Shown piece by piece: positions 28,730 to 44,461 of a stretch of 64,000 bases of DNA. A program made the position numbers and the translations under genes. Source of the DNA: Hymenobacter sp. H14-R3 (GTDB taxonomy: Bacteria > Bacteroidota > Bacteroidia > Cytophagales > Hymenobacteraceae); NCBI RefSeq assembly GCF_030063445.1, contig NZ_JASITD010000003.1:124001-188000 (forward strand), read 5' to 3'. The stretch's first letter is position 1. Each line of letters begins with the position of its first letter. The notes beneath the pieces were generated by a model. It was not told the origin of the DNA and searched no databases. It was given only the letters and a program-made list of their open reading frames with translations.

Positions 28730-28782
28730 TGTACATAATTTTTCCTTAAGTGTACATAATTTCGGCATTTAGTATACATTTG
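28730..28782 (+). promoter_or_regulatory. Promoter/operator with 21-bp-spaced direct repeats
   Basis: TGTACATAATT occurs at 28730-28740 and again at 28751-28761, exactly 21 bp apart (two helical turns). A third related word, TATACATTT, follows at 28773-28781 and contains the -7 element TACATTTG (28775-28782). The repeats thus end on the promoter of the DUF2339 gene and look like operator sites. This placement also argues against a start at the GTG 28750. Confidence 0.65.
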
Positions 28783-28857
28783 CTATCCGAACCTGGGTGG
28801 TACCGGGCTGATTTTGTGGCCGTTTTGGCCGATTTTTTCCCCTTTACCCCCATCACA

Positions 28858-31800
28858 ATGGTTCTACTCATTGCAGGGCTCCTCGTGGCCCTACTAGTCA
28901 TCGCGCGAAGTTGGGGCTTGCCCCTTCAGGTCAAGGAGTTACGAGCCGACCTGGGCCGCCGCCAGGTCGAGCAACACAAAATGCAAGGCCAAATTCAGCA
29001 GCTGCGCGTGCAGCTGGTATTGCTACGGGAAGAGTTTTTGGCGGCGCTACCCGTGGTAGCCGCGCCGCCCGCGCCGGCCCCTGCGGCATGGGCCGATTAC
29101 CCTAACACGTGGCCCGCGCCCACGGCGGAGCCAGCAGCGGCACCCCAACCCACCGCTTCTCCCCTACCCGCTGAGCCCGCGCCCGCGCCAGCAGCCGAAC
29201 CGCTGGCCGCAGCGCCTGCCGCACCAGCTACGGAAGCAGCCCAAGAAGCTGAGGCAGTTGAGGCAGTTCAGCCAGCCCAGGCGGAAACCGCAGGAGCTCA
29301 ACCCACCCAAGAAACTGAATCAAAGCTACTTGCTGAGCCTGAAGCGGCACAAGTTGCAGCGCAAGCGCCGGTTGTAGCGTCCGAGCTAGTTGAAGAGATT
29401 ATTGAAGAGGCACAGGCTGCAGAACCTGAGGTAGTTGAGGAATCCGAATTAGTACAAATATCAGATTTAGAAGTACTTATTGCAAACGAGCTAGCTCAGG
29501 TAGCAGAACCGGAAGTAGCCGGCGAGCCAGAATCGGAACCGGCGCAAGTAGCGGAGAGCGAGCTGGTGGCTGCATCTGAGTTGGCGAAATCGCCGGTTGA
29601 GGAGGTTGAGCCAACGCCGGAGGAGCCGGGCGAGGAGGAATTGAGCGAAGAGCCAACTCAAGAGCAAGCGCCCGTTGCGCTGCCAGAGCCGGCACCAGCC
29701 CCCACGCCCCGGCCCCGCGCTATGCCGCCCCTACCGGCGGCCAAGCCGGCGCTGCGGCCCAAGAAAATACCCACGGGTCCTACCTTCTGGGAGCGCACCT
29801 CCACGGTAGTGCTCGAAAACTGGACCGGCATTTTGGGGGCCGTGGTGCTGGTGACGGGCGTGGGCTTTTTGGGCATTTATGCGGCGCTGCGGGTGTCGCC
29901 ACCGCTGCGCTTTTTGCTGATTTGCGCCTTTGCGGCGGGGCTGCTGGGGGCGCGGTTTGGGCTGCGCCACAAGGACTTTGCCAAGCAGCTGAATGCCTGG
30001 CTATTGAGCAGCGCGGCGGCCATTTTCCTGTTTGCCTGCGTGGGGGCGGTGAGTATTCCGGGCCTGCGCTGGGCCACGCCGCCGTTTGACTACCTGCTGC
30101 TGCTGGCCGGCGTGCTGGCCAACCTGTACCTGGCCTGGCGCACCAGCCGCCAAGATGTGGCCACCCTGCACGGCGTGCTGAGCCTAGTGGCGCTGGCGGT
30201 GCTGCCGCCCACGCCCCTCACGCTGGCCGCGGCGGCCGGCGTCACGGCCTTCAGCATCGCCATTACCTACCGGCAGCAGTGGAAATACCAGCTGCTGCTG
30301 AGCATCGGCAGTTTCTTCGCATTTCACGTGTATTGGCATCAGCAGTTGGGAGCTGTGGAAGGCAGTGCGCGCCTGGTGGCCATGGCACTGGTGACGCTGG
30401 TGGGCGCGGCCGCGGCCGTGGTGCAGTACCGCCGCGTGTACGCCGAGCGCCGGTTTGAGCCGCTGCTGTTTGCCTCGCACCTGCTCAACTGGACCAGCCT
30501 GGGCCTCAACCTGTACTTCTACAGCACGGGCTCGGTTTGGAAGACTATTCCGCTGGCTGCTGGGGCCTTGCTTACGTTCTGGGCCGGGCGGCAGGCCAAG
30601 CGGCTGGGCATCGGCTGGCTGTTTCAGACCGATACCATCCTCTCGCTCATTCTGGGGCTGGCTGCGGCGCTGTCGCTGCAAGGCTGGCACGCCACGCCGC
30701 CGGTTATCGGGCTCTTCATGCTGCTCGAAACCCTGCTGGTGACCCTGATAATGGCCCGGCAGCGCGAGGCTCTGGTGTACCGCGTGGCGCTGGCCGGCGC
30801 GCTGCTGGCGGGCAGCGGCCTGCTGCTTTTCGTGGGCGGCCGGGCGGCTGGGGCACTGCCCGCCGTGCTCTACCGCGATGCCCTGGTGCTGGCCCTGGCC
30901 GGCGGGGCGGGGCTGGCGTTTGCGCAGTTCATTTATAAGCAGCCGCTTTTACAACTCCTTGTCAATAAAGAACTTATTTCAAAGAACGAAGCTCACCAGG
31001 CTCACCGCACGCTGCTGAGCAGCTTTGCGGGCCTGGTGGGCGCGCTGCAAGCCGGCGCGGGGCTGATGCTGGCGCGGGCGCTGTTTGCCTGGTCGGGCGT
31101 GCCGGTGGCGGGGCTGCTGCTGGCGCTGGTGGCGCTGGCCGGCTGCGCAGTAGCCCTGGCTGCCTGGGTGCAGGCGGCGGGCCGCGCGCCCGACTGGGTG
31201 CGGCGGCAACAACTGGCACTGGGTCAGCTGTTTGCGGTGCTGGCCATCGTTGGCTTGCACGAGGTGCACCTGAGTTGGCCGGTTATTCTGCTGCTACTGT
31301 TTGCCGAAAACCTGGGGGCGGGCCTGCTGCTGGCCCGGCGCGATGCCCTGCTGCACCGCGTGGTCTTGACCAGCGCCCAGCTCAGCGGCCTGGGCTTGCT
31401 GGCGGTGGCGGGCAGCCACTTCGGCGGCCCCCGCGCCACGCTTTATCGTGATGCCCTGCTGCTGGCGCTGGCTGGCTGGGGCAGCCTGACCTTTGCGCAG
31501 CTGGCGTTTAAGTCTTTCTTAACGCAATTTATTGGTTTTGAAGCTAATAAGGAGTCAGCCAACCACGCCACGGCCGGGGAATACCGGCGCTGGCAGAGTG
31601 CCTTTGCGGGGCTGGGCGGGCTGCTGCAGCTGGGCGCCGCCGGGCTGGTGGCGCACGCGTTGTTTGGCTGGGAGCAGCCGCCGGTGGCGCTGCTGCTGGG
31701 GGCGCTGCTGGCGCTGGCGGGCACGGCCGGGGCGCTGGCTACCTGGGTGCGCCGCGGCGGGCGGGCGCCCGGCTGGGTGCGGTGGCAGCAGCTGGCGCTG

Positions 31801-34800
31801 GGGCAGCTAGTGGTGGTGCTGGCCATATTCGGGCTGCACGAGCTGGGGCTGGCTTGGTCGGCGCTGCTGCTGGTCCTCTTTGCCGAAAACCTGCTGGTAG
31901 TGCTCCTGCTGGCCGGCCGCGACGCCACCGACCAACTGCACCAAGTGGCGTACCGGGCGGCGATGGGCGAGGCGCTGCTCACCGGCGCGGGCCTGCTGCT
32001 CACGGCTAGCAATCATTCGATAACCACCTCACCCACTACGCTTTACCGCGAGGCGCTATTGCTGGCGCTGGCCGGCTGGGTCGGCTTGGCGTTTGTGCAG
32101 CTGGCTTACCGGTTTCCGCTACTGCAAGGCGTGCAACCCGGCCGACGGCTGGGGCCGGCTGCGCCGCTTCAAGTGGTATCGAACCCCGCGGCGCACCCGG
32201 CGTGGCTGGGCAGCTTTGCCGGCCTGGCGGGGTTGCTGCAAGCGGGCGCGGGCCTGTTGATGGGGCGGATGCTGTTTGGCTGGCACCCGGCCCCGGTGGG
32301 TGGGCTGCTGCTGGCGCTGGCGGCGCTGGCGGGCAGCGCGTTGGGCCTAGCCGCCTGGGTGCAGGCGGCGGGTCGCGCGCCTAGTTGGGTGCGGCGGCAG
32401 CAGGTGGTGCTCGGGCAATTATTCGTAGTGCTGGCCATTTTTGGGCTGCACGAGCTGGGCCTGAGCTGGCCCGGCGTACTCAGCATCCTCTACCTCGAAA
32501 CCCTGGTGGCCGTGCTACTGCTGGCCCGGCGCGATGGCCTGCTGCACCGCGCCGCCATGGCCGGGGCGCTGCTGGCGGGCAGCAGCCTGCTGCTGCTGGC
32601 GGCCACGCACCTGCCCGACAGCCCGCCTTTCCAGCTCTACCGCGATGCCGCGCTACTGGCGCTGACCGGCTGGTTGAGCATTGCGTTCATCCAACTTACC
32701 GCTAAGCAATTGGCCACAAAATTCGGCACCGACGCGACGCCGACCTCCGGCCTGCTCGCCAACCTGCTCAGCGGCTTTGCGGGGCTGGCGGGCCTGCTGC
32801 AAGTGGGCACGGGGGCGCTGCTGGCGCGGGCGCTGTTTGCCTGGCCGGGCGTGCCAGTGGCGGGGCTGCTGCTGGCCTTGCTGGGGCTGGCAGCGGCGGC
32901 CCTGGGCCTGGCCTACTGGGTGCGGGCCAGTGGCCGGCTACCCGGCTGGGTGCGCCGCCAACAGCTGGTACTCACGCAGTTTTTTGTGGTGCTGGCGGTG
33001 GTGGGTTTGCACGAAGCGCACCTGGGCTGGTCGGTTATCCTGGCCCTGCTGTTTGCCGAAACCCTGCTGGCCGCCCTGTGGCTGGCCAAGCGCGATGCCC
33101 TGCTGCACCGCGCCGCGCTGGCCGAGGCCCTGTTTACGGGCGCGGGCCTGCTACTGCTGGCCGGCGGCCACCCGGCGGCCACGCTACCGCCGGCCCTCTA
33201 CCGCGATGCCACGCTGCTGGCGCTGGCCGGCTGGGCAGGCCTAGCCTTTATACAGCTCACTTACAAGCAATTATCTAATAAACTAAGTCTTGATGCCGCT
33301 GGCTCCGCCGCGGCCGACGGGCTTGCCAACTGGCTGGCGGGCTTCGCCGGACTGGCGGGCTTCCTGCAAGCGAGCGCAGGCTTGCTATTGGCGCAGGTGG
33401 TGTTTGCGCACGCCGATACGCGGGCGCTGGCCGGGCTGCCGGTGCTGGCCGGGGTGGCGCTGGCCTTGGCTGCCTGGGTGCACCGCAGTGGCTGGGCTCC
33501 GCGCTGGGTGCGCCGGCAGCAACTTCTTCTTACCCAAGTCTTTGCCATACTAGCGCTGGTGGGGCTGCACGAAACGGGCCTGAGCTGGCCCGTGGTATTC
33601 GGGCTGCTGTATGCCGAAGGCCTGCTGGCCGCCCTGCTGCTGGCCGGGCGCGAGGAGGAAGGCCTGCTGCACCTCCAAACCTACCTGCTGGTGCTGCAAG
33701 CGGGCCTGCTGCCCGTGCTGGTGCGCTATGCCGCGCCCGGCGCGCTGCCGCCGCTGGGGCAGGCGGGCCTGCTGCTGGGCGCGGCCTTGCTCACGCTGGG
33801 CTACCAGCTGCGCCGGCTGGTATTTGCCCAGGCGGGGGATGATTATGCGCTGCTGCCCGCCATCGGCACTTACCGGCTGCCGGCGCTAAGCATCGCCATC
33901 GGCTGGCTGCTGCTGGGCACGGGCGCCCTGGAATACAGGCAGTTGTGGGCCGGCTACGCCGTGGCCGGGCTGCTCGGGGCGCTCCTCTACCTGCGCCAGC
34001 GCCTCACGGTGCCGGGCCTGTGGGCCGGGCTGGTGCTGGCGGCCACCGGCTACGTGGGGCTGCAATGGGCCCACGTGCTGCACGCGGCTATGGCACAGCA
34101 CGTTGGCAATGCGCCCGGGCTGGGAGCCGGCCATGTGCTGCTGTACCTGCTGCCCACCGTGGCCGTGCTGCTGGCGGGCATGCGCACCGCGTGGTGGCCG
34201 GCCGGCGAGCGCTTTGTGCGCTGGCCGTGGCTGTATTGCCTGGGGCTGCACCTGGTGGTGGGGCTGCTGGGTAGCGTGCCGCCGGCCCACTTGGCCTACC
34301 TGGTGCTGGGGCTGCTGGCCCTGGCCGGGGCGGCCTTCGCGGCGGCGCAAGCCTGGCGGCGCACCCTGCCCGATGCCGCCGCCGTGGCCCGCGCCGGCCA
34401 GCCCGACCGCTACCTGCTGCACCTCAGCTACGGGCTGCTGCTGGCCAGCCTGGCCACGCACCTGCGGCTGCTAATGACCACCGAAACCCTACTGCACCAG
34501 CCGGCCGAGTACCTCACGGCGGCGGCCCTGTTGGGGGGGCTGGTGGCGCTGGCCTGGGCCCGGCGGCCGGCAGCTGGCCCGGTCTACACCTCGTGGCGCG
34601 TGCTGCACCCGGCGCTGCTGGAGGTAGCGCTGCTGTTTGGCACGGGCACGCTGGCGCACCACGTGCGGACGGCCTGGCTGGGGTTGGTATGGGTGGCTTT
34701 CGCACTGGTTATCTGCGCATTGCTTATTGAGCTCCCGCTACGTTTCCGGCGGCTGGGCGTGTACGGGCGTCTGTATTTCGGGCTGGCAGCGCTGTCGGCC

Positions 34801-35373
34801 GGCGCGTTTTGCCTGCGCTACCTGGGTGCCGAGCAGCTCATGGGCATGGAGCGCTGGGCGGTGGGCAGCACCGTGGCGCTGCTGTTTGGGTACGCGGGCC
34901 TGGCGCTGCGCCTCGGCAACGCGCCCCTGGCGGGGCTCTCGCCCCGGTGGGCGGCGCTGGCCCGGCCCACACGCCACCAGCTGGAGGCGGCGCTACTCTA
35001 CCCCGCTTTTGCGGTGCTGGCGCTGCTGTTCATCGAGTCCTTCGACCGCGCAGTGCTCACCGTGCTACTGATGCTGGAAGTGGTGGCCATTTTCAGCACC
35101 AGCCTGCTGCTGCGCCGCCAGGATATGCGCTACGTAGCCCTGGCCGGCATGGCCGCCACCCTGGTGCGGCTGGCCGTGGTCGACCTCAGCCGCAGCGGCA
35201 CCGTAACGCGGGCTATCGTGTTCATATTCGTGGGCTTACTGCTGCTGGGCTTGCATGCGCTGTACGCCCGCTTCAAAACCCGGTTTGCCGGGGCGGGCGC
35301 GCCACCGGCCGAGGAACCCGATGAATTGGACGAGCAAACTGAGTTTGACGAGCCCACGCCGGCAGCTACGTAA
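28858..35373 (+). CDS. Giant DUF2339 family membrane protein with five tandem modules
   Basis: 2171 residues from the ATG that begins a transmembrane segment (VLLIAGLLVALLVIA). Next comes a coiled stretch (LQVKELRADLGRRQVEQHKMQGQIQQLRVQL) and an acidic Pro/Ala/Glu-rich linker to about residue 290. The DUF2339 signature TFWERTSTVVLENWTGILGAVVLVTGVGFLG begins near 303. The rest is dozens of hydrophobic helices. Five copies of a module of 187-200 residues are visible: LYR(D/E)A-x-LLALAG begins at residues 671, 862, 1062, 1260 and 1447, and each is followed by a (A/L)P-x-WVR(R/W)QQ motif. Ordinary family members are roughly half this length. Function is unknown; a polytopic inner-membrane role is inferred. 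Confidence 0.88.
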   Translation: MVLLIAGLLVALLVIARSWGLPLQVKELRADLGRRQVEQHKMQGQIQQLRVQLVLLREEFLAALPVVAAPPAPAPAAWADYPNTWPAPTAEPAAAPQPTASPLPAEPAPAPAAEPLAAAPAAPATEAAQEAEAVEAVQPAQAETAGAQPTQETESKLLAEPEAAQVAAQAPVVASELVEEIIEEAQAAEPEVVEESELVQISDLEVLIANELAQVAEPEVAGEPESEPAQVAESELVAASELAKSPVEEVEPTPEEPGEEELSEEPTQEQAPVALPEPAPAPTPRPRAMPPLPAAKPALRPKKIPTGPTFWERTSTVVLENWTGILGAVVLVTGVGFLGIYAALRVSPPLRFLLICAFAAGLLGARFGLRHKDFAKQLNAWLLSSAAAIFLFACVGAVSIPGLRWATPPFDYLLLLAGVLANLYLAWRTSRQDVATLHGVLSLVALAVLPPTPLTLAAAAGVTAFSIAITYRQQWKYQLLLSIGSFFAFHVYWHQQLGAVEGSARLVAMALVTLVGAAAAVVQYRRVYAERRFEPLLFASHLLNWTSLGLNLYFYSTGSVWKTIPLAAGALLTFWAGRQAKRLGIGWLFQTDTILSLILGLAAALSLQGWHATPPVIGLFMLLETLLVTLIMARQREALVYRVALAGALLAGSGLLLFVGGRAAGALPAVLYRDALVLALAGGAGLAFAQFIYKQPLLQLLVNKELISKNEAHQAHRTLLSSFAGLVGALQAGAGLMLARALFAWSGVPVAGLLLALVALAGCAVALAAWVQAAGRAPDWVRRQQLALGQLFAVLAIVGLHEVHLSWPVILLLLFAENLGAGLLLARRDALLHRVVLTSAQLSGLGLLAVAGSHFGGPRATLYRDALLLALAGWGSLTFAQLAFKSFLTQFIGFEANKESANHATAGEYRRWQSAFAGLGGLLQLGAAGLVAHALFGWEQPPVALLLGALLALAGTAGALATWVRRGGRAPGWVRWQQLALGQLVVVLAIFGLHELGLAWSALLLVLFAENLLVVLLLAGRDATDQLHQVAYRAAMGEALLTGAGLLLTASNHSITTSPTTLYREALLLALAGWVGLAFVQLAYRFPLLQGVQPGRRLGPAAPLQVVSNPAAHPAWLGSFAGLAGLLQAGAGLLMGRMLFGWHPAPVGGLLLALAALAGSALGLAAWVQAAGRAPSWVRRQQVVLGQLFVVLAIFGLHELGLSWPGVLSILYLETLVAVLLLARRDGLLHRAAMAGALLAGSSLLLLAATHLPDSPPFQLYRDAALLALTGWLSIAFIQLTAKQLATKFGTDATPTSGLLANLLSGFAGLAGLLQVGTGALLARALFAWPGVPVAGLLLALLGLAAAALGLAYWVRASGRLPGWVRRQQLVLTQFFVVLAVVGLHEAHLGWSVILALLFAETLLAALWLAKRDALLHRAALAEALFTGAGLLLLAGGHPAATLPPALYRDATLLALAGWAGLAFIQLTYKQLSNKLSLDAAGSAAADGLANWLAGFAGLAGFLQASAGLLLAQVVFAHADTRALAGLPVLAGVALALAAWVHRSGWAPRWVRRQQLLLTQVFAILALVGLHETGLSWPVVFGLLYAEGLLAALLLAGREEEGLLHLQTYLLVLQAGLLPVLVRYAAPGALPPLGQAGLLLGAALLTLGYQLRRLVFAQAGDDYALLPAIGTYRLPALSIAIGWLLLGTGALEYRQLWAGYAVAGLLGALLYLRQRLTVPGLWAGLVLAATGYVGLQWAHVLHAAMAQHVGNAPGLGAGHVLLYLLPTVAVLLAGMRTAWWPAGERFVRWPWLYCLGLHLVVGLLGSVPPAHLAYLVLGLLALAGAAFAAAQAWRRTLPDAAAVARAGQPDRYLLHLSYGLLLASLATHLRLLMTTETLLHQPAEYLTAAALLGGLVALAWARRPAAGPVYTSWRVLHPALLEVALLFGTGTLAHHVRTAWLGLVWVAFALVICALLIELPLRFRRLGVYGRLYFGLAALSAGAFCLRYLGAEQLMGMERWAVGSTVALLFGYAGLALRLGNAPLAGLSPRWAALARPTRHQLEAALLYPAFAVLALLFIESFDRAVLTVLLMLEVVAIFSTSLLLRRQDMRYVALAGMAATLVRLAVVDLSRSGTVTRAIVFIFVGLLLLGLHALYARFKTRFAGAGAPPAEEPDELDEQTEFDEPTPAAT

Positions 35374-35522: not shown

Positions 35523-36923
35523 CTAGCGATACGCAAAGCGGTAGCGCAGGCCCAGGCTACCCCCGGCCTGCAAGACCTCGAAACCGCTAAAAGAGGTTTG
35601 CAGGTTTTGAATGAATACGTATTCGGCCGTGGCTTGCAGCTTGCGCCGCCGGCCGAAGCCGTAGCCCACATTCAGGCCCCCAATGGCGTGCCCACTCGTT
35701 GTTTGGCGGGCAAAGGCAAACTGGTCCTTTACCTGGCCATTGTCGTATTTTGTTTCGCTGAACCGCACTCGCGCATACGACAGGGCCACGCCCCCCACCA
35801 CCTCAAACTGCACGCGCTGCAAGTACTGGCGCGTGATGGCGTAGCGCAGCAGTAGCGGAAAGGTCAGGGTTTGCTGGTAGTTTTCGGAGGCGTTGAGTAA
35901 AATTTGCTGGGCCCCAACCAATACGTAGCTCTCGCTACGGCCCGTGCCGGCCTGCCCCTGGTAGCCCAGCTGCACCGCCAGCCGGGGCCGCAGCTGGTAG
36001 CCCACGTACACGTAGGGGTTCTTCACCTCTACGCCGTAGCTGCCCACGCCGGCCCGCTGGAAAAACGATGGGAACCCACCCGGCCGCGCCGCATAGGGGT
36101 CAAAATTATCGAAGCGCACCTGGTAGTTGTAGCTGCCGCCCTGCACCCCCACGTAGTAGCGCGGGCGCAGGGTAGCGTCTTCGGCGGCGCTCAGGCGCAG
36201 GGGCAGGCGCGCCAGCGGCGGGGCCGCGCCCAGCAGCAGCCCCACCCGCAAGCTGGCGTTCAGCTGGAAGTCCGAGAATTTGGGGGCAATCAGCTGCGTA
36301 AGGCCCAGGTTGGCATCAATAAAGCCCAGCCGACCCAGCCGGCGCTGGAGGCCATAAAGCATGGCAAAGTCAGCCAAGCCTTTGTTGGACAAGGCATTAC
36401 TCGGGAAGTAATAGTAGAAGGGCGTGTCGCGGGTGTGGCGGCCCAGGCCCGCCCCCAGGGCCACGGCGAAGTAGTTGCCCGAGAAGCTGCCCGCGTCTTT
36501 TCCCCGGCGGCGGCGGCGCTCCAGGTCGTAGTAGTAGCGGCCCATCAGCTGCACCCGGGCGCTGGCGGCGCGTTGCAACTGGCCATCGGGGCCGCGGTAG
36601 CGCACCACGGCCGGGCTCACCTCGCCCTGCACGGCCCAGGCCGGGCCCAGCTTGCGCTCGTAGGCCAGGTGCACGCCGTAGCGCGTGTAAAAATCGGTGG
36701 CCGAAGCCTGGCCGAGCGTGAAGTTGTTGAGCCCCAGCTTCCACTGGCCGCGCTCCAGCGTTTGCAGGCGCAGGGCCGTGGTATCGGGCCCGTTCAATAC
36801 CTCTTCGCCGTAGCTGAGGCGGGCAGAGTCGGCGGCAGTTTGGGCAGCGGCCCGGTAGGGCTGGCCGAAGGAGCCACCCAGCACCAGGCCTAGCAGCAAC
36901 GAGAACAGATGGACAAGACGCAT
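35523..36923 (-). CDS. Outer-membrane beta-barrel paralogue 1 of 3
   Basis: 466 residues: signal peptide (LVHLFSLLLGLVLGGSFGQPYRAAAQT), then WKLGLNNFTLG, HLAYERKLGPAWAVQGEVSPAVVRY, RYYYDLERRRRRG, GNYFAVALGAGLG, LYGLQRRLGRLGFIDANLGL, a variable middle, VYVGYQLRPRLAVQLGYQ and a terminal GGSLGLRYRFAYR with C-terminal aromatic/Arg. These blocks recur in the two upstream genes, so the three arose by tandem duplication. It is the last gene of a minus-strand array headed by an ECF sigma factor; 108 bp separate it from paralogue 2. Confidence 0.85.
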   Translation of the reverse strand: MRLVHLFSLLLGLVLGGSFGQPYRAAAQTAADSARLSYGEEVLNGPDTTALRLQTLERGQWKLGLNNFTLGQASATDFYTRYGVHLAYERKLGPAWAVQGEVSPAVVRYRGPDGQLQRAASARVQLMGRYYYDLERRRRRGKDAGSFSGNYFAVALGAGLGRHTRDTPFYYYFPSNALSNKGLADFAMLYGLQRRLGRLGFIDANLGLTQLIAPKFSDFQLNASLRVGLLLGAAPPLARLPLRLSAAEDATLRPRYYVGVQGGSYNYQVRFDNFDPYAARPGGFPSFFQRAGVGSYGVEVKNPYVYVGYQLRPRLAVQLGYQGQAGTGRSESYVLVGAQQILLNASENYQQTLTFPLLLRYAITRQYLQRVQFEVVGGVALSYARVRFSETKYDNGQVKDQFAFARQTTSGHAIGGLNVGYGFGRRRKLQATAEYVFIQNLQTSFSGFEVLQAGGSLGLRYRFAYR

Positions 36924-37031
36924 GAGAAAAAGCTTAGGTGGGGGAAAAAATGCTTGGGGTGCCCGCCCCCAACGCAGGCAGCGCCAGCGGGGCTTTTTGG
37001 CGGGTGGAGGGCGCGTAGGGCCCCGGCCGGC

Positions 37032-38495
37032 CTAGCGGTAGCCAAAGCGGTAGCGCAGGCCCACTTTGGCGTAGGTGGCCGGGCGCTCGGGGTTGCTGAA
37101 CAGGTGGTGCAGGTCTTCCTGCAAGCCGTAGTCCACGGTGGCCTGCACGCGGCGGCGGTGGCCCAGCCCGTAGCTGAGGGCGCCGCCCAGGTTGGCGGTG
37201 AGACCCAGGGCCCGGCGCTCAAACTCAAACCGCACCTGGTCGGTGACGGCGTAGCCGGCCGTCTCGTATTCCCGAAAACGCACCCCCGACCACACCGGCG
37301 TGAGGCCCCCCACCACTTCTACCTGCAGCCGCCGCTGAAAGGAGCGCGTGACGGCGTAGCGCACCTGCACGGGCACGGCCAGAATAGACTCGTCATAGAA
37401 TCTGCTGCGCGGGTAGTAGTAATCGCCCCCAGCCCGGCGAATGCCCACCGCGCCGCCGCCAAAGTCGCTCTGGGAAGCGCCGTACTGCACCCCCACTTGC
37501 AGCGCCAGGCGCGGCTTGAGGTAGTAGCCGCCGTACAGGTAGTACGTTTTATCGTTGTCGTACTCACGCGTACCGATTGCTTCGTTGTTATACCCTGGGC
37601 CATAGGGCAGGTAGATGACGTATTTCTCGTACCCGTTGGCAGTTTCCTGGTAAGAAGCCGGGTACGGGTTGGCGCGGGTGTAGTGCGTGTGATAGCGGGC
37701 GTCGCCAAACTGGGCGCCCACGAAAAAGCGCGGCAGCAGGGCCTGCACCTCGTCGGGCTGCGCCTCCTGCGGGGCCGTGCGGGCAATGGTGGGCAGCGCC
37801 ACCCCGATGCGCAGGCTGGCCACGGGCCCAAAATTCTGCGCACGCCCCGCCCGCAGCACGCCGCTCAGGCCCGCGTTCAGGTCCACGAAGCCGAAGCGGC
37901 CCAGCCGGCGCTGCACCCCGTAGAGCAGGGCCGCATCGGTGGCGGGGCCGGTGCCGTCGGCCAGCAGGTGAAACGGCGTTTCGCTGGGTCCCTTGCTCAG
38001 GCCCAGCCCCAGGGCCAGGGCGAAGTAATTGGCCGAGAAGCCCGCCGTGCGGTGGCCCCGGCGCAGGCGGTGCTCCAGGTTATAGTAGTAGCGGCCAGCT
38101 AGTTGGGCCCGCAGCTGCGCGCTGGCCACCGGGGCCCCGGCCGTCCCCTCGGCCCGGTAGTGAATGATGGCCGGGCTGGCTTCGACCTGCCCCGACCAGG
38201 CGCGGCCCAGGCGGCGCTCGTAGGCCAGGTGCAGGCCGTAGCGGGTGTAGTAGCCCGGCACGTCCTTGGTCTGGCTGAAGGGGTAGCCATTGAGAATGAA
38301 GTTGTTGAGACCCAGCTTCCACTGGTCGCGCGCCTGGCGCGGCACGGCCGGCAGCTCGGCGGCCGGCAGCAGCTCCTCCTCGTACTTGAGGTGGGTAGTG
38401 TCGGTGGGCGTGGTTTGGGCGGCGGCGGCCAAAGGCAGCAGCAAGCCGGCTACAAACGCCAATTGCCCCCGCAGAAAAGAGGAGAAGTATTTCAT
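37032..38495 (-). CDS. Outer-membrane beta-barrel paralogue 2 of 3
   Basis: 487 residues: signal peptide (FLRGQLAFVAGLLLPLAAAAQT), then DTTHLKYEEELL, WKLGLNNFILNG, HLAYERRLGRAWSGQVEASPAIIHY, RYYYNLEHRLRRGHRTAGFSANYFALALGLGL, LYGVQRRLGRFGFVDLNAGL, a variable Tyr-rich middle, and the end AKVGLRYRFGYR. It shares every conserved block with its neighbours, but the middle third is unrelated, as expected of surface loops that differ between paralogues. The gap to paralogue 3 is 59 bp. Confidence 0.85.
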   Translation of the reverse strand: MKYFSSFLRGQLAFVAGLLLPLAAAAQTTPTDTTHLKYEEELLPAAELPAVPRQARDQWKLGLNNFILNGYPFSQTKDVPGYYTRYGLHLAYERRLGRAWSGQVEASPAIIHYRAEGTAGAPVASAQLRAQLAGRYYYNLEHRLRRGHRTAGFSANYFALALGLGLSKGPSETPFHLLADGTGPATDAALLYGVQRRLGRFGFVDLNAGLSGVLRAGRAQNFGPVASLRIGVALPTIARTAPQEAQPDEVQALLPRFFVGAQFGDARYHTHYTRANPYPASYQETANGYEKYVIYLPYGPGYNNEAIGTREYDNDKTYYLYGGYYLKPRLALQVGVQYGASQSDFGGGAVGIRRAGGDYYYPRSRFYDESILAVPVQVRYAVTRSFQRRLQVEVVGGLTPVWSGVRFREYETAGYAVTDQVRFEFERRALGLTANLGGALSYGLGHRRRVQATVDYGLQEDLHHLFSNPERPATYAKVGLRYRFGYR

Positions 38496-38554
38496 ACTAT
38501 CGTAATGGGCGAGATAATTTCAAGTCAAAATTCTAATAATCAGCTACTTACATC

Positions 38555-40006
38555 TTATCGGTAGCCGAAGCGGTAGCGCAGGCCCAGGCTACCGCTCGGC
38601 GTCAGGTCATTGATACTCGTAATCTGCAAGCCGGTGCGCAGGTCTTTGGCGGCCGTTAGCTCGGCGGTGGCCTGCACCTGGCGGCGGCGGCCAAAACTGT
38701 AGTTGGCCGCCAGGCCCAGGGTGGCGTGCAGCCCCCACGAGGTGCGCCGGAAACCGGCGGTCTGCTGGTCGGTAACCTGGTGCTGCTCAATGGCATATTC
38801 CCGATACTCGGCCGTGCTCCGCACCAGCGTAAGCCCACCCAGCGCCTCAAACTGCCAGCGCCGCAGAAAGACCGGCGTGAGGCTGTAACGCGCCACTACC
38901 GGCAGGGCCAGCCCGGTGGCCCGGTAGCGGCCGTTGCCCACCGCAAGCCGGCCGCCGGGGCTGGTAAAGGTGGTGTAGTTGAGGGCCGTGCTGGCCCAGT
39001 AAGTCGCGCCCGCCTGCACGGCCAGGCGGGGCAGCAGGTAGTAGCCGGCGTAGAAGGTCGGGGCGGGGAAAGCGAACTCTTCGTAATAGTCATAGCCCCT
39101 GTATGGCCCACCATAATTCGTTTCCCGCGTTTCGCCCCCTATCACTTCCTTCCTGCTCTCCGGGTAAGGGCTTTGCGCTGGGTATTGCAGCCGGTAGCCG
39201 ATGCGGCCCGCCTGCACGCCCAGGTAGACCCGCGGGTGCAGGCTGGCCTCGGCAGTAGCTGGCACGGGCGGGGCCGGGTAGCTAGGCGGGCTGCCCAGCA
39301 CCACGCCCAGCCGCAGGCTGCCCACTACGCCGGTTTGAAACCCGGAAGTAAAAAAATTACCCAGGCCGAGGCTGGCATCCATAAAGCCCCGGCGACCAAA
39401 GCGGCGCTGCACGCCGTAGAGCACCGCCACATCAACGGGGGCAGTGCCGCTGCTGCCGCTCGTTACCCCGCCCGCCAGCGGCAAAAAAGGGGCCTCCCGG
39501 TTGGACCCGCCCGGCCCAAACAAGCTGGCCCCGATGGCGACCGCTACGTAATTGGCCGAAAAGCCCGCCGTGCGCAGGCCCTGCCGCCGCCGCCGTTCCA
39601 GGTTGTAGTAGTAGCGGCTTGCCACCTGGGCGCGCAACGCGAAGTTGGTTTGGTTCTCCGTGTAGTAGCCGGTGCGCCTGCGCGTGATGGCCGGGCTCAC
39701 CTCGCCCAGCACTGACCAGGCCGGGCTGCCCAACTGGTGCTCGTAGGCCACATGCAAGCCCGCTCGCCAAGAAGAAGCATAGGCCAGGGAGCCCACTAAA
39801 AAGTTATTCAGCCCCAGTTTCCAAACGCCGCGTTCTTGACGGGCGATAGGGCGCGGCGCGGCGGCAGCCGGGGCCGCCACCTCCTCGCCGTAGCGCAGGC
39901 GGGTGGTATCGGCGGGCGTGGTTTGGGCGGCGGCGGGGTGGGCCAGGCCCGGCAGCAGGCCAGCCCCAAGCAGCAGGCCGGCCAGGTAAGCGTAGAATCT
40001 GTTCAC
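38555..40006 (-). CDS. Outer-membrane beta-barrel paralogue 3 of 3
   Basis: 483 residues: signal peptide (YLAGLLLGAGLLPGLAHPAAAQT), DTTRLRYGEEVAAP, WKLGLNNFLVGS, HVAYEHQLGSPAWSVLGEVSPAITRR, RYYYNLERRRRQGLRTAGFSANYVAVAIGASL, LYGVQRRFGRRGFMDASLGLG, TFYAGYYLLPRLAVQAGATYW and a terminal SGSLGLRYRFGYR. It begins 6 bp after the stop of the beta-helix protein gene, so it is likely transcribed with it and with the sigma/anti-sigma pair. Confidence 0.85.
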   Translation of the reverse strand: MNRFYAYLAGLLLGAGLLPGLAHPAAAQTTPADTTRLRYGEEVAAPAAAAPRPIARQERGVWKLGLNNFLVGSLAYASSWRAGLHVAYEHQLGSPAWSVLGEVSPAITRRRTGYYTENQTNFALRAQVASRYYYNLERRRRQGLRTAGFSANYVAVAIGASLFGPGGSNREAPFLPLAGGVTSGSSGTAPVDVAVLYGVQRRFGRRGFMDASLGLGNFFTSGFQTGVVGSLRLGVVLGSPPSYPAPPVPATAEASLHPRVYLGVQAGRIGYRLQYPAQSPYPESRKEVIGGETRETNYGGPYRGYDYYEEFAFPAPTFYAGYYLLPRLAVQAGATYWASTALNYTTFTSPGGRLAVGNGRYRATGLALPVVARYSLTPVFLRRWQFEALGGLTLVRSTAEYREYAIEQHQVTDQQTAGFRRTSWGLHATLGLAANYSFGRRRQVQATAELTAAKDLRTGLQITSINDLTPSGSLGLRYRFGYR

Positions 40007-40012
40007 AAAAAA

Positions 40013-40966
40013 TCAGGGTTTAAGCACCGACGAAACGCTGAGCGGGGCGGGCGGCAGCGGCTGGGTTTGCAGGGTCAGCGGGGCGTAGGTGGTAGTGGCG
40101 CGCACCAGCGGGCGCGGGCCAGCCACCGCCAGCGTGCCGTGGGTGGCGCTGCCCTTGCGGGCGGCGGCGTAGGCGGCGGGCACCGTGAGGGTGCCTTGCT
40201 GGGTGCTGAGCTGATAGGTAAACTGCTCGGGCTGCGGCACGCTGATAATCACCTCCGTACGGTCGGTTTCGATGCTGAGCTTGCGCAGCGTGGCGGCCGG
40301 CTGCACCCGCACGCTGCCGTAGAAGTCGTGCACCACGCAGCTGCCGCCCAGCTCGGTCAGCAGCACCGCCGACTTATTGGCCTCGCAGGTAAAATCGGCC
40401 TGCACGTTGGTGGCCGTGAGGTCGGCGTAGCGGGCCGTCACGCGGAGGGTGCCGCGCAGGTCGCGCAGGATAATTTTGCCGAAGCTTTGTTCCACTGATT
40501 GGCGGCCGGTGAGGTCGGCCAGCTCGGTTTGGCCGTAGGCGTTCACCACTTGCAGCGGGTTGCCGGCGGGCATAAACACCGTGAACTCGGCGCGCAGGTC
40601 GCTGCGCACGGCCGGCGCACCGGCCGGCAGCTCAAAGAAATTGAGCAAATCCAGCCCTTTGCCGTTTTGCTGCAAGCGGTACTGCGCCACGGGCAGGTCC
40701 TGCTCGGCCACGGCGCGGTCGGGGTGGCGGGCACTCAGGCGCAGCGTCACCTGCACGGTGGGCTTGTCCCAGGCCCGCACCAGCACGGTGGCTTTCTCGG
40801 CCCGGATGCGCACGGCCAGGCCCGGCGGGCAGGGCCAGTTCTGGGCCAGGGTGCGGGTCACCACCTGCACCTTTTGCTGCGCCCAGGCGGGCGGCAGGGC
40901 CAGCAGGCTTAGCAGCCCGGCCAGCAGGACCGCCTGGCTTACCCGATGTAACTTATAGATAATCAT
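40013..40966 (-). CDS. Secreted beta-helix / DUF4097-like protein
   Basis: 317 residues from the ATG that overlaps the preceding stop by 4 bp (ATGA); the open frame runs further upstream but lacks a signal there. The signal peptide is VSQAVLLAGLLSLLALPPAWAQQ. The mature part alternates short strands in a repeating ladder (VVNAYGQTELADLTGRQSVEQSFGKIILRDLRGTLRVTARYADLTATNVQADFTCEANKSAVLL, seen at about residues 130-200), the pattern of DUF4097/head-GIN-type putative adhesins. Such proteins are commonly encoded beside ECF sigma/anti-sigma genes in Bacteroidota. Confidence 0.75.
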   Translation of the reverse strand: MIIYKLHRVSQAVLLAGLLSLLALPPAWAQQKVQVVTRTLAQNWPCPPGLAVRIRAEKATVLVRAWDKPTVQVTLRLSARHPDRAVAEQDLPVAQYRLQQNGKGLDLLNFFELPAGAPAVRSDLRAEFTVFMPAGNPLQVVNAYGQTELADLTGRQSVEQSFGKIILRDLRGTLRVTARYADLTATNVQADFTCEANKSAVLLTELGGSCVVHDFYGSVRVQPAATLRKLSIETDRTEVIISVPQPEQFTYQLSTQQGTLTVPAAYAAARKGSATHGTLAVAGPRPLVRATTTYAPLTLQTQPLPPAPLSVSSVLKP

Positions 40967-41706
40967 GATATTAGCAATTGAACCAACTCGCGGGTAACCG
41001 CGGCTTTCAGGTTGATAAGCTGGGTTTGCTCGCGCAGCAGCTCGGGCGAAGTGCCGAAGCGCCGGGCATCGAGGCGCAGGCGGGCTTCCTCGCCCTCCAG
41101 CTCGGTGAGCTGGGTGCGCAGCGAGCGAAACTCGCCCGACTGGCACACCGTGGGCAGCGACGAGCAGTGCGCATCAATGAAGGCCTGCCCCTGCTGCTCC
41201 AGCGGGTCGGGGGCGGCGAAGGGCACGGCCGCCAGCGCCCGCGGCTCGCTGGTCACCGGCGCTACTTCCTCGCTGTAGGCCACCGTTTCGTGCAAGGCCG
41301 TGGCCGCCGGCGTAGTGGTTGGGCGCAGCCCCCACCACCCGCCCAGCAGCAGCAACACGCTGGCTGCCAGGGCCAGAGCGCGCCGCGCCGGGCGGCTCAG
41401 CCAGGCGGGGCGGCCGGGCAGCGGCAGGGTGCGCAGCACTGCCGGAACCACTTCAGCGGGGGCGGCTTCGGGCGCGGCGGCGGTTTCGCCAGCATCGAGG
41501 CGGGCGCTGATGCTGGCCCACAGGTCATCGGCGGGCTCGTGGGCGGGCAGGGTCGGAATGGCGCGCGCCAGGGCTTCGGCGGCGGCCAACTGGGCCGCGA
41601 GGCGGGGCCAAGTGGCCGCGTCGGGCTCGTGGAGGGGTAGGGTAGCCACCGCCCGCCGCAGATTTGGAATGCCGCTTTCGGGCATGTCGGGGGTTGTGGG
41701 GTTCAT
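40963..41706 (-). CDS. Anti-sigma factor (single-pass membrane protein)
   Basis: 247 residues from the ATG that overlaps the sigma-factor stop by 4 bp. The N-terminal cytoplasmic part has two similar blocks, AVATLPLHEPDAATWPRLAAQL and AIPTLPAHEPADDLWASISARL, which may bind the sigma factor. One transmembrane helix (RALALAASVLLLLGGWWGL, about residues 108-126) follows. The periplasmic part ends in a coiled region (LRTQLTELEGEEARLRLDARRF). Coupled translation with the sigma gene supports the assignment; there is no canonical zinc motif. Confidence 0.82.
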   Translation of the reverse strand: MNPTTPDMPESGIPNLRRAVATLPLHEPDAATWPRLAAQLAAAEALARAIPTLPAHEPADDLWASISARLDAGETAAAPEAAPAEVVPAVLRTLPLPGRPAWLSRPARRALALAASVLLLLGGWWGLRPTTTPAATALHETVAYSEEVAPVTSEPRALAAVPFAAPDPLEQQGQAFIDAHCSSLPTVCQSGEFRSLRTQLTELEGEEARLRLDARRFGTSPELLREQTQLINLKAAVTRELVQLLIS

Positions 41707-42248
41707 GAGTAGAGGTGTTGAAGCTTGCGTTGGAGCAGGCGCTTGGCGTGAAAAAGCTGCGACTTGCTGGTGCCCTCGCTGATGCGGAGCAGCTCGGCCA
41801 CCTCGCGGTGGGCGTAGCCCTCCACTTCGACCAGGCAGAACACGGCCCGGTAGCCGGCCGGCAGCTCGGCAATGGCCCGGTCGAGGGCCTCGCCGGTGAG
41901 GTTGTCGTGCCAGGCCACCAGCGGCTCGGGGTGCTGCTCGGGGTCGTACACTTCCATGCGCTGCTCGCACCGCAGCGTGCGCAGCGCGCGCCGCACCACA
42001 ATAATTTTAATCCAAGCTCCCAGCGTGGACTGGTGCCGGAAACTGCTCAGCGATTGGAAGACTTCGATAAAGCCCTCCTGCAACGCGTCCTGGGCCAGGT
42101 CGCGGCTGCCCAGAATGCGGAGCGCCGCCGAGAACATGGCCGTTTTGTAGCGCAGGTACAGCTGGTGCTGCGCCTGCCGGTCGTGGGCCAGGCAGCCGGC
42201 CAGCAGCTGGTCGTCGGCGGAGGGCGCAAGGGGTAGCGGTGCTGGCAT
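41703..42248 (-). CDS. ECF RNA polymerase sigma factor
   Basis: 181 residues from the ATG before PAPLPLAPSADDQLLAGCLAHDRQAQHQLYLRY; an in-frame start 13 codons upstream is weaker. Region 2 is visible as LYLRYKTAMFSAALRILGSRDLAQDALQEGFIEVFQ with the DNA-melting segment FRHQSTLGAWIKIIVVRRAL, and region 4 as LPAGYRAVFCLVEVEGYAHREVAELLRISEGTSKSQLFHAKRLLQRKL. It probably directs transcription of the downstream envelope genes and itself. It overlaps the anti-sigma gene (ATGA). Confidence 0.93.
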   Translation of the reverse strand: MPAPLPLAPSADDQLLAGCLAHDRQAQHQLYLRYKTAMFSAALRILGSRDLAQDALQEGFIEVFQSLSSFRHQSTLGAWIKIIVVRRALRTLRCEQRMEVYDPEQHPEPLVAWHDNLTGEALDRAIAELPAGYRAVFCLVEVEGYAHREVAELLRISEGTSKSQLFHAKRLLQRKLQHLYS

Positions 42249-42396
42249 TAGCAGTAATTTGGCGTAAAGTGCCAGCCCGGCGCGCAAAGGTTGGTTGGGG
42301 CCGCACTTATTTTTTTAAAGCTTAGCCAGCGGGCAGCAGATGCCAACCTTTCTACTCGCAAACGCTTACTTAACAGCCACTTTCCCCTTCACCATC

Positions 42397-43792: not shown

Positions 43793-43840
43793 AAAAAGAG
43801 CGCCCGCCTCCCTTACAGCGGGGAGGCGGGCGCTCTTTTT
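43793..43840. terminator. Bidirectional terminator
   Basis: Perfect 20-bp stem (AAAAAGAGCGCCCGCCTCCC / GGGAGGCGGGCGCTCTTTTT) with an 8-nt loop, shared by the flavin reductase and convergent toxin genes; its last base overlaps the toxin stop codon. Confidence 0.95.
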
Positions 43841-44184
43841 TAAGCCGGTGGCAACTCTTGTTGTAGCAGTTTCAGCAACTCTTCTTTAGCGATGCTGCCG
43901 GCTTCCGATTTGTCATAAATCGTTACCAGATAGACCGTTTCACTTTCGGCAGTTTGCTCCACGTAGTACGTGATAACGCGGAAGCCGCCGCTTTTACCGC
44001 CGCCCTTACTGGCGCTGGCCAGGCGGATTTTGTAAAGGCCCGCGCCCAGGCTTTCGCCCTGGCGCGGGTCAGTAATGATACTTTGTACAAGTGTGCGAAG
44101 CTCATTGGTGAGCGAAATGAATTTTTTACGTAGCCTTTTAGACCGGCGGTCAAATTCTGGTAACGTCCTAATCGTCCGCCTCAT
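43840..44184 (-). CDS. RelE/ParE-superfamily toxin-like protein
   Basis: 114 residues from the ATG inside the end of the antitoxin gene (17-bp overlap); a start eight codons earlier is possible. [50 protein letters not shown] and [17 protein letters not shown] fit the RelE/HigB-type fold, and [12 protein letters not shown] is the signature of the 'RelE, addiction module' subgroup. Such toxins cleave ribosome-bound mRNA. Unlike the 26-kb locus, this reading frame is intact. Confidence 0.8.
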
Positions 44185-44461
44185 CTTTTTCGCTTTCCAA
44201 TTCCGCAAATAATTCTTCTATCGGCCGGCCGGTAATCTTACCAGCCCGCAATAGCTTAACTTGCTCAATACTAGCGTGCAGCGCCTCCATCGAGATACTA
44301 ATGTGGGTATCCGTATCCTCATCGTCATCCTCATTAACTACAGGAGTTACCGGCGGGCGGGCGGCGGGCGGCTCGGCCTGCACAATGAGCTGCTTGAGTT
44401 GCTGCTGAATACGCTGGGGCAGCACTTTGTACTGCTCAAACAAAACCTGGGCGGTGGTCAT
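44168..44461 (-). CDS. Antitoxin-like partner protein
   Basis: 97 residues: an N-terminal helical part ([25 protein letters not shown]), an acidic Pro-rich linker ([15 protein letters not shown]) and a C-terminal amphipathic segment ([27 protein letters not shown]). VLFEQYKxLP...QLKQLI is common in Bacteroidota antitoxins. It precedes and overlaps the toxin gene. DNA-binding motifs are not obvious. Confidence 0.7.

Follow-up and report, generated by a model that had tools for sequence, protein, structure and literature searches.

Six genes on the minus strand occupy positions 35523-42248 of the 64,000-nucleotide stretch of Hymenobacter sp. H14-R3 DNA that we analyzed (hereafter the window, to which positions refer unless another locus is named). 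The array exemplifies a conserved operon that encodes an ECF sigma factor, an anti-sigma factor, a periplasmic toastrack protein and one or more OmpA-like barrels, laid out here as follows:

41703-42248, minus strand: ECF sigma factor, 181 aa (Pfam Sigma70_r2 and r4_2 above cut-off)
40963-41706, minus strand: anti-sigma factor, 247 aa (assigned from its position, its ATGA overlap with the sigma gene and an alignment of 19 orthologues)
40013-40966, minus strand: toastrack (DUF4097-type beta-helix) protein, 317 aa, with signal peptide (AlphaFold and Foldseek); ATGA overlap with the anti-sigma gene
38555-40006, minus strand: barrel b1, 483 aa, GTG start, 6 bp after the toastrack gene; two predicted 8-strand barrel domains
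37032-38495, minus strand: barrel b2, 487 aa, 59 bp after b1
36954-36972, minus strand: terminator-like hairpin with T-run, in the b2-b3 gap
35523-36923, minus strand: barrel b3, 466 aa, 108 bp after b2

The gene coordinates bear out the six genes, ATGA overlaps and intergenic distances described in the first-pass annotation. Terminator-like hairpin sites are no more numerous in this region than in shuffled sequence, and the one between b2 and b3 may lower b3 expression. With this hairpin ahead of b3 and possible internal promoters in the AT-rich b1-b2 gap, more than one transcript may cover the six genes, leaving room for separate control of the extra barrels. Between the operon and uvrA lies a pair of small genes (43840-44461, minus strand) with the look of a RelE/HigB-type toxin and its partner, and convergent with the operon (28750-35373, plus strand) is a gene whose 2207-aa product, a multi-pass membrane protein that looks DUF2339-like by eye, contains several internal repeats. 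We found no published account of the operon in the literature that we searched.

The sigma protein is a clear ECF factor, with significant Pfam matches to Sigma70_r2 (2.7e-12) and r4_2 (2.8e-14), TIGR02937 also above cut-off, and the restriction to regions 2 and 4 that defines this class. The anti-sigma protein has no Pfam match; the alignment of 19 orthologues outlines a putative cytoplasmic N-terminus bearing two LPxHEPxxxxW repeats and a periplasmic helical domain with two invariant cysteines, and a single membrane helix was read by eye, its hydropathy lying just under the threshold used (1.6). Sequence-profile searches with the anti-sigma and the barrels returned no relative of solved structure. 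In genome G062 the anti-sigma gene is split over two reading frames (L054:5445-5900), by mutation or assembly error.

As judged from its predicted structure, the third gene product is a secreted toastrack protein with the toastrack beta-helix fold. Its AlphaFold model (pLDDT 91) was matched by Foldseek to the solved toastrack proteins 4qrk (best, 2e-10), 3lyc and 3pet; at the sequence level its toastrack Pfam match falls below cut-off (E 0.008), and that of the Fibrisoma orthologue lies above it.

Barrel b1 is 46% identical to b2 and 41% to b3 (MAFFT). The barrels had initially been described as sharing four ordered blocks (WKLGLNNF, RYYY(N/D)LE, LYG(V/L)QRR-GR-GF and LRYRF(G/A)YR) around unrelated middles. 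All four blocks are real, but the middles are divergent rather than unrelated: averaged over pairs, the sequences are 49-54% identical in residues 25-180, about 30% in residues 240-360 and 34-43% towards the end, and homology spans the whole length. The b2 model (pLDDT 81, pTM 0.57) places 8 strands in residues 57-234 and about 8 in residues 257-484, and OmpA matches one such domain with a target TM of 0.61-0.64 (Foldseek). We rejected a 16-strand porin, for which whole-length Foldseek matches had a query TM below about 0.2, OmpA fitting a single domain instead, as well as an internal duplication, the two halves lacking detectable similarity (hhalign probability 0.4) and the short forms stopping after the N-half, as the barrel does in many relatives. 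Taking together the two 8-strand domains, the OmpA match to one of them, the non-homologous halves and the short N-half forms, the long form is most simply modelled as two fused OmpA-like barrels, and a single larger barrel is an alternative that the predictions could accommodate.

To place the operon among its relatives we surveyed 120 Hymenobacter genomes, counting barrel homologues that scored beyond the chance level for the family. A barrel homologue occurs in 41 of them, and at 38 of these 41 loci the sigma, anti-sigma and toastrack genes lie directly upstream in the same order; among the remaining three, genome G113 keeps the promoter and toastrack gene, and two are orphans. Toastrack orthologues (E<1e-100) were found in 39 genomes of the genus, with a barrel present in every one (39/39). 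Each operon locus in the genus carries one barrel, three being seen only in Hymenobacter sp. H14-R3. Named carriers include H. nivis, H. roseosalivarius, H. caeli and H. actinosclerus and, outside the genus, Fibrisoma montanum; the same operon is present in Fibrisoma, in the GTDB sister genus g6 and in families f5, f11 and f19. In an order-wide draw (Cytophagales), several families proved to have toastrack orthologues, which as a rule follow the same sigma and anti-sigma genes and precede one to three barrels; families other than that of Hymenobacter again include arrays of two or three barrels, and at some loci of other families different outer-membrane proteins (424-441 aa) stand directly behind the toastrack gene. 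Most long-form loci adjoin uvrA, as in H14-R3, and those of genomes G001 and G003 do not. Barrels are thus not widespread without the trio, which, together with a conserved promoter before the sigma gene (below), upholds the earlier proposal that trio and barrels act as one regulatory unit. Hymenobacteraceae also carry a second sigma/anti-sigma/toastrack trio, with a sigma factor about 40% identical (L237-L241, e.g. L238:4595-7272), which lies between DegP-like and aldehyde-dehydrogenase-like genes and is devoid of a barrel, a YSEE motif and an AACC promoter.

Aligning the DNA upstream of the sigma gene across trio loci revealed a consensus with fixed spacing, CCAACCWTY-N14-CMCTTT, which is unlike the primary-sigma box TAnnTTTG and is represented in H14-R3 by:

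42266-42294, minus strand: predicted sigma-dependent promoter CCAACCTTT-N14-CACTTT (-35-like element 42294-42286, -10-like element 42271-42266)

Transcription likely starts near the CAAA at 42258-42261 (minus strand). The consensus occurs with at most two mismatches at 57 of 64 trio loci (38 exact, 17 with one mismatch and 2 with two), compared with 1/64 for a reversed-pattern control, and is absent from the four barrel-less trios examined. The 5.26-Mb H14-R3 genome contains a single exact copy, the one at 42266-42294, and three sites with one mismatch, all inside open reading frames; throughout the genus, exact copies number one or two per genome and lie mostly at this operon. Such near-confinement implies a predicted regulon that consists of the operon itself. 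A large regulon was rejected, as counts of sites with one or two mismatches in the H14-R3 genome did not exceed those of the reversed pattern, and a wider one is possible, the search having covered up to two mismatches. A sigma-like site before b3 (36929-36957, 3 mismatches) was discarded as being at chance level and without the AACC core. In G025, a second exact motif lies about 170 bp before a gene for a 188-aa lipoprotein-like protein adjoining the operon (L050:3498-4262), a possible extra target.

A rearrangement in G113 bears on what reads this promoter. The sigma and anti-sigma genes beside its barrel have collapsed by deletion to a 127-aa remnant with a sigma-like start and an anti-sigma-like end (L057:5106-5489), and the exact motif still precedes the toastrack and barrel genes; an intact sigma/anti-sigma pair resides on another contig (L145:6123-7500), behind an exact motif of its own. 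This is the arrangement expected if the sigma factor reads the motif and the toastrack and barrel genes are its essential targets. We infer that the operon's sigma factor recognises CCAACCWTY-N14-CMCTTT and thereby autoregulates its own operon positively.

The anti-sigma factor and the barrels share a short peptide motif, of the form [ILV]x[YF][SGT]xE, which in H14-R3 is found four times:

41263-41292, minus strand: anti-sigma copy HETVAYSEEV (residues 139-148), just after the membrane helix on the periplasmic side
39878-39910, minus strand: b1 N-terminal tail, DTTRLRYGEEV
38370-38402, minus strand: b2 N-terminal tail, DTTHLKYEEEL
36798-36830, minus strand: b3 N-terminal tail, DSARLSYGEEV

All three barrels of H14-R3 begin, past the signal peptide, with D-[TS]-x-R/H-L-x-Y-[GE]-E-E, and all motif copies sit in short, probably disordered segments beside the membrane or barrel domain. 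Counted over all loci as the core [ILVMT]x[YF]xxE, a pattern defined after the motif had been noticed by eye and hence fitted to part of the data, it is present in 54/64 anti-sigma segments (shuffles: mean 3.6, max 9) and 55/75 barrel tails (mean 3.7, max 9). In controls that came afterwards, the motif appeared in only 3 of 166 unrelated signal-peptide ORFs, in neither of two trio-less barrels (L080, L083) and in none of five anti-sigmas from paralogous barrel-less trios. Moreover, flank preferences agree between anti-sigma and barrel copies (I/V/L at -2, S/G at +1, E at +3, T/V at +4 and V at +5), and motifs that share a locus are more similar to one another than shuffled pairs are (p 0.0002 overall, 0.016 within the genus and 0.019 outside it; permutation uncorrected for shared ancestry). 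Exceptions are the anti-sigmas of three related loci, L064, L071 and L072, which lack the motif, and those of L052, L054 and L055, in which its tyrosine is replaced. The barrels of L071 and L072 carry a degraded motif (HYEEV and HAEEV), possibly a natural loss of interaction. At L219, L223 and L224 the anti-sigma motif is kept, the first gene encodes a different outer-membrane protein, and no motif-bearing barrel was seen in the stretch.

The three barrels of H14-R3 have separate histories. Barrel b2 is 67% identical to the single barrel of G095 and groups with it (100/100), and b3 groups with the single barrels of G001 and G003 (100/99). A recent tandem duplication, in which b1-b3 form one clade, was rejected by AU tests over the full length (p 5.5e-87), the N-half (p 1.2e-4) and the C-half (p 1.4e-60). 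Sequence comparison thus identifies b2 and b3 as lineages that other species carry singly, and the three barrels are not recent duplicates. The barrel phylogeny conflicts with that of the trio, the trio data rejecting a grouping of H14-R3 with G001 and G003 (p 5e-4), and of the four genes the barrel gene shows the highest dS in 8 of 10 close pairs. On the basis of the tree conflict, the uvrA context and the high barrel dS, the trio appears to be vertically inherited and barrel alleles appear to move or to be differentially kept; transfer and ancient paralogy with loss fit the data alike. In the nine close pairs with estimable dS, barrel dN/dS is 0.08-0.34, implying purifying selection, and a search of the locus found neither simple-sequence arrays nor an inverted-repeat switch.

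Gene order, linkage, order-wide conservation, the promoter with its near-uniqueness and the shared motif with its controls are all documented in these sequence comparisons. From them we infer recognition of the promoter by the sigma factor, the toastrack protein as partner, the sign of the feedback and the stimulus, and chart a model to which we assign a probability of roughly 60%: the operon forms an envelope-sensing loop that is self-contained and positively autoregulated, and one binding partner, probably the toastrack protein, serves both the barrel tail and the anti-sigma factor. At rest, the ECF sigma factor would be held at the inner membrane by the anti-sigma factor, and a periplasmic or outer-membrane disturbance would free it to direct RNA polymerase to one promoter, before its own gene, raising the levels of sigma factor, anti-sigma factor, toastrack protein and barrels. 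The barrels would then insert in the outer membrane, their N-terminal tails with the anti-sigma-like motif staying in the periplasm. A peptide common to brake and barrel implies a common partner, for which the toastrack protein, exported and always encoded between anti-sigma and barrel, is the best candidate. The amount of partner remaining to stabilise or release the anti-sigma factor would then depend on what share of the barrels had been correctly placed, or had stalled in the periplasm. In a more specific form, which we put forward tentatively and at somewhat less than even odds, the barrel tail is a mimic of the anti-sigma juxtamembrane segment and the two compete for periplasmic toastrack, such that barrel insertion or outer-membrane state is read by peptide titration, in an order-wide scheme of self-only control.

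The same peptide could instead be recognised by a protease or periplasmic chaperone common to both proteins, with the anti-sigma factor destroyed once that protease or chaperone is engaged by barrel tails, much as DegS responds to unfolded porins in the E. coli sigma-E pathway. The location of the copies in short, probably disordered segments suits this explanation, as do the barrel-less trios, which have a toastrack gene yet lack the motif, indicating that the motif goes with the barrel and not with the toastrack; however, the conserved operon contains no such protease or chaperone gene, and apart from the toastrack protein no further exported protein is always encoded alongside the two motif bearers, leaving this on the unlikely side. 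Operon order and promoter would also fit barrels that are output only, a sigma-switched outer-membrane repertoire without sensing in which the motif reflects a common export or assembly need, and the different outer-membrane proteins placed behind the toastrack gene in other families look like exchangeable output. The rarity of the motif in other exported proteins (3/166) and its absence from trio-less barrels speak against such a need, and we regard this account as distinctly unlikely.

The first-pass annotation had offered envelope sensing or surface variation as alternatives, and of these we retain the former, as an interpretation. Tandem barrels differing in loops against phages or predators and exchanged between strains would accord with the conflict between barrel and trio phylogenies, with the failure of b1-b3 to form one clade, with the high barrel dS, compatible with import of divergent alleles, and with the recurrence of barrel arrays in other families. 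The purifying selection where dN/dS could be estimated, the lack of invertible or slippage elements in the locus and the single barrel of every other operon-bearing member of the genus nevertheless make a surface-variation system improbable; of the hallmarks of phase-variable systems, namely invertase sites, simple repeats and diversifying selection, none was found.

Envelope sensing in Bacteroidota is poorly understood, and the operon offers a small and widely conserved example in which the promoter is explicit and the predicted regulon amounts to essentially one operon. The relocated sigma gene of G113, the trio-less barrels and the barrel-less trios serve as natural experiments, and the motif is short and could be mutated in a tractable environmental bacterium, allowing a direct test of whether a peptide mimic lets outer-membrane barrels signal their state to an anti-sigma factor.

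Several known systems combine similar parts. In TonB-dependent signalling of the FecI/FecR/FecA type, an ECF sigma factor, an anti-sigma factor and an outer-membrane barrel act together, a combination also predicted here; the present barrels differ from such transducers, 22-strand receptors with plug and signalling domains, in being small, predicted OmpA-like proteins with two predicted 8-strand domains, for which no TonB or plug domain match was found. The E. coli sigma-E/RseA/RseB system comprises a membrane anti-sigma factor, a periplasmic third protein and outer-membrane proteins tied to the response, and all three elements have predicted counterparts in our operon. However, in the fold search the toastrack model matches toastrack structures and not RseB, the predicted regulon is nearly a single promoter, and the shared peptide lies at the barrel N-terminus rather than the C-terminus. 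PSP/Lia-type systems likewise couple a toastrack fold to transcriptional control: toastrack sheets have been proposed to assemble signalling complexes, and operonically linked sigma factors are mentioned for toastrack-linked systems of this type, in which the toastrack is predicted to be intracellular (PMC11237479). Here, in contrast, the toastrack protein has a signal peptide and an outer-membrane partner, and Pfam searches found no PspA, PspC or LiaI-LiaF/LiaF partner domains in the six operon proteins.

A further comparison is with the Dma family of dual membrane-spanning anti-sigma factors. Anti-sigma factors fused to a barrel are described in Bacteroides (PMC13088901). Dma and the present system both link a Bacteroidota ECF sigma factor and anti-sigma factor to an outer-membrane beta-barrel, and the dma2 operon is among the genes most induced on loss of the anti-sigma factor, which we liken to the operon described here. 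In Dma, however, the barrel is the C-terminal domain of the anti-sigma factor, whereas here the barrels are encoded by separate genes, the 247-aa anti-sigma factor has a helical domain at its end, and the operon includes a toastrack protein as well. As the barrel/anti-sigma fusion is absent, the present system is not a member of the Dma group; by analogy, it looks like an unfused counterpart of Dma to which a toastrack protein has been added.
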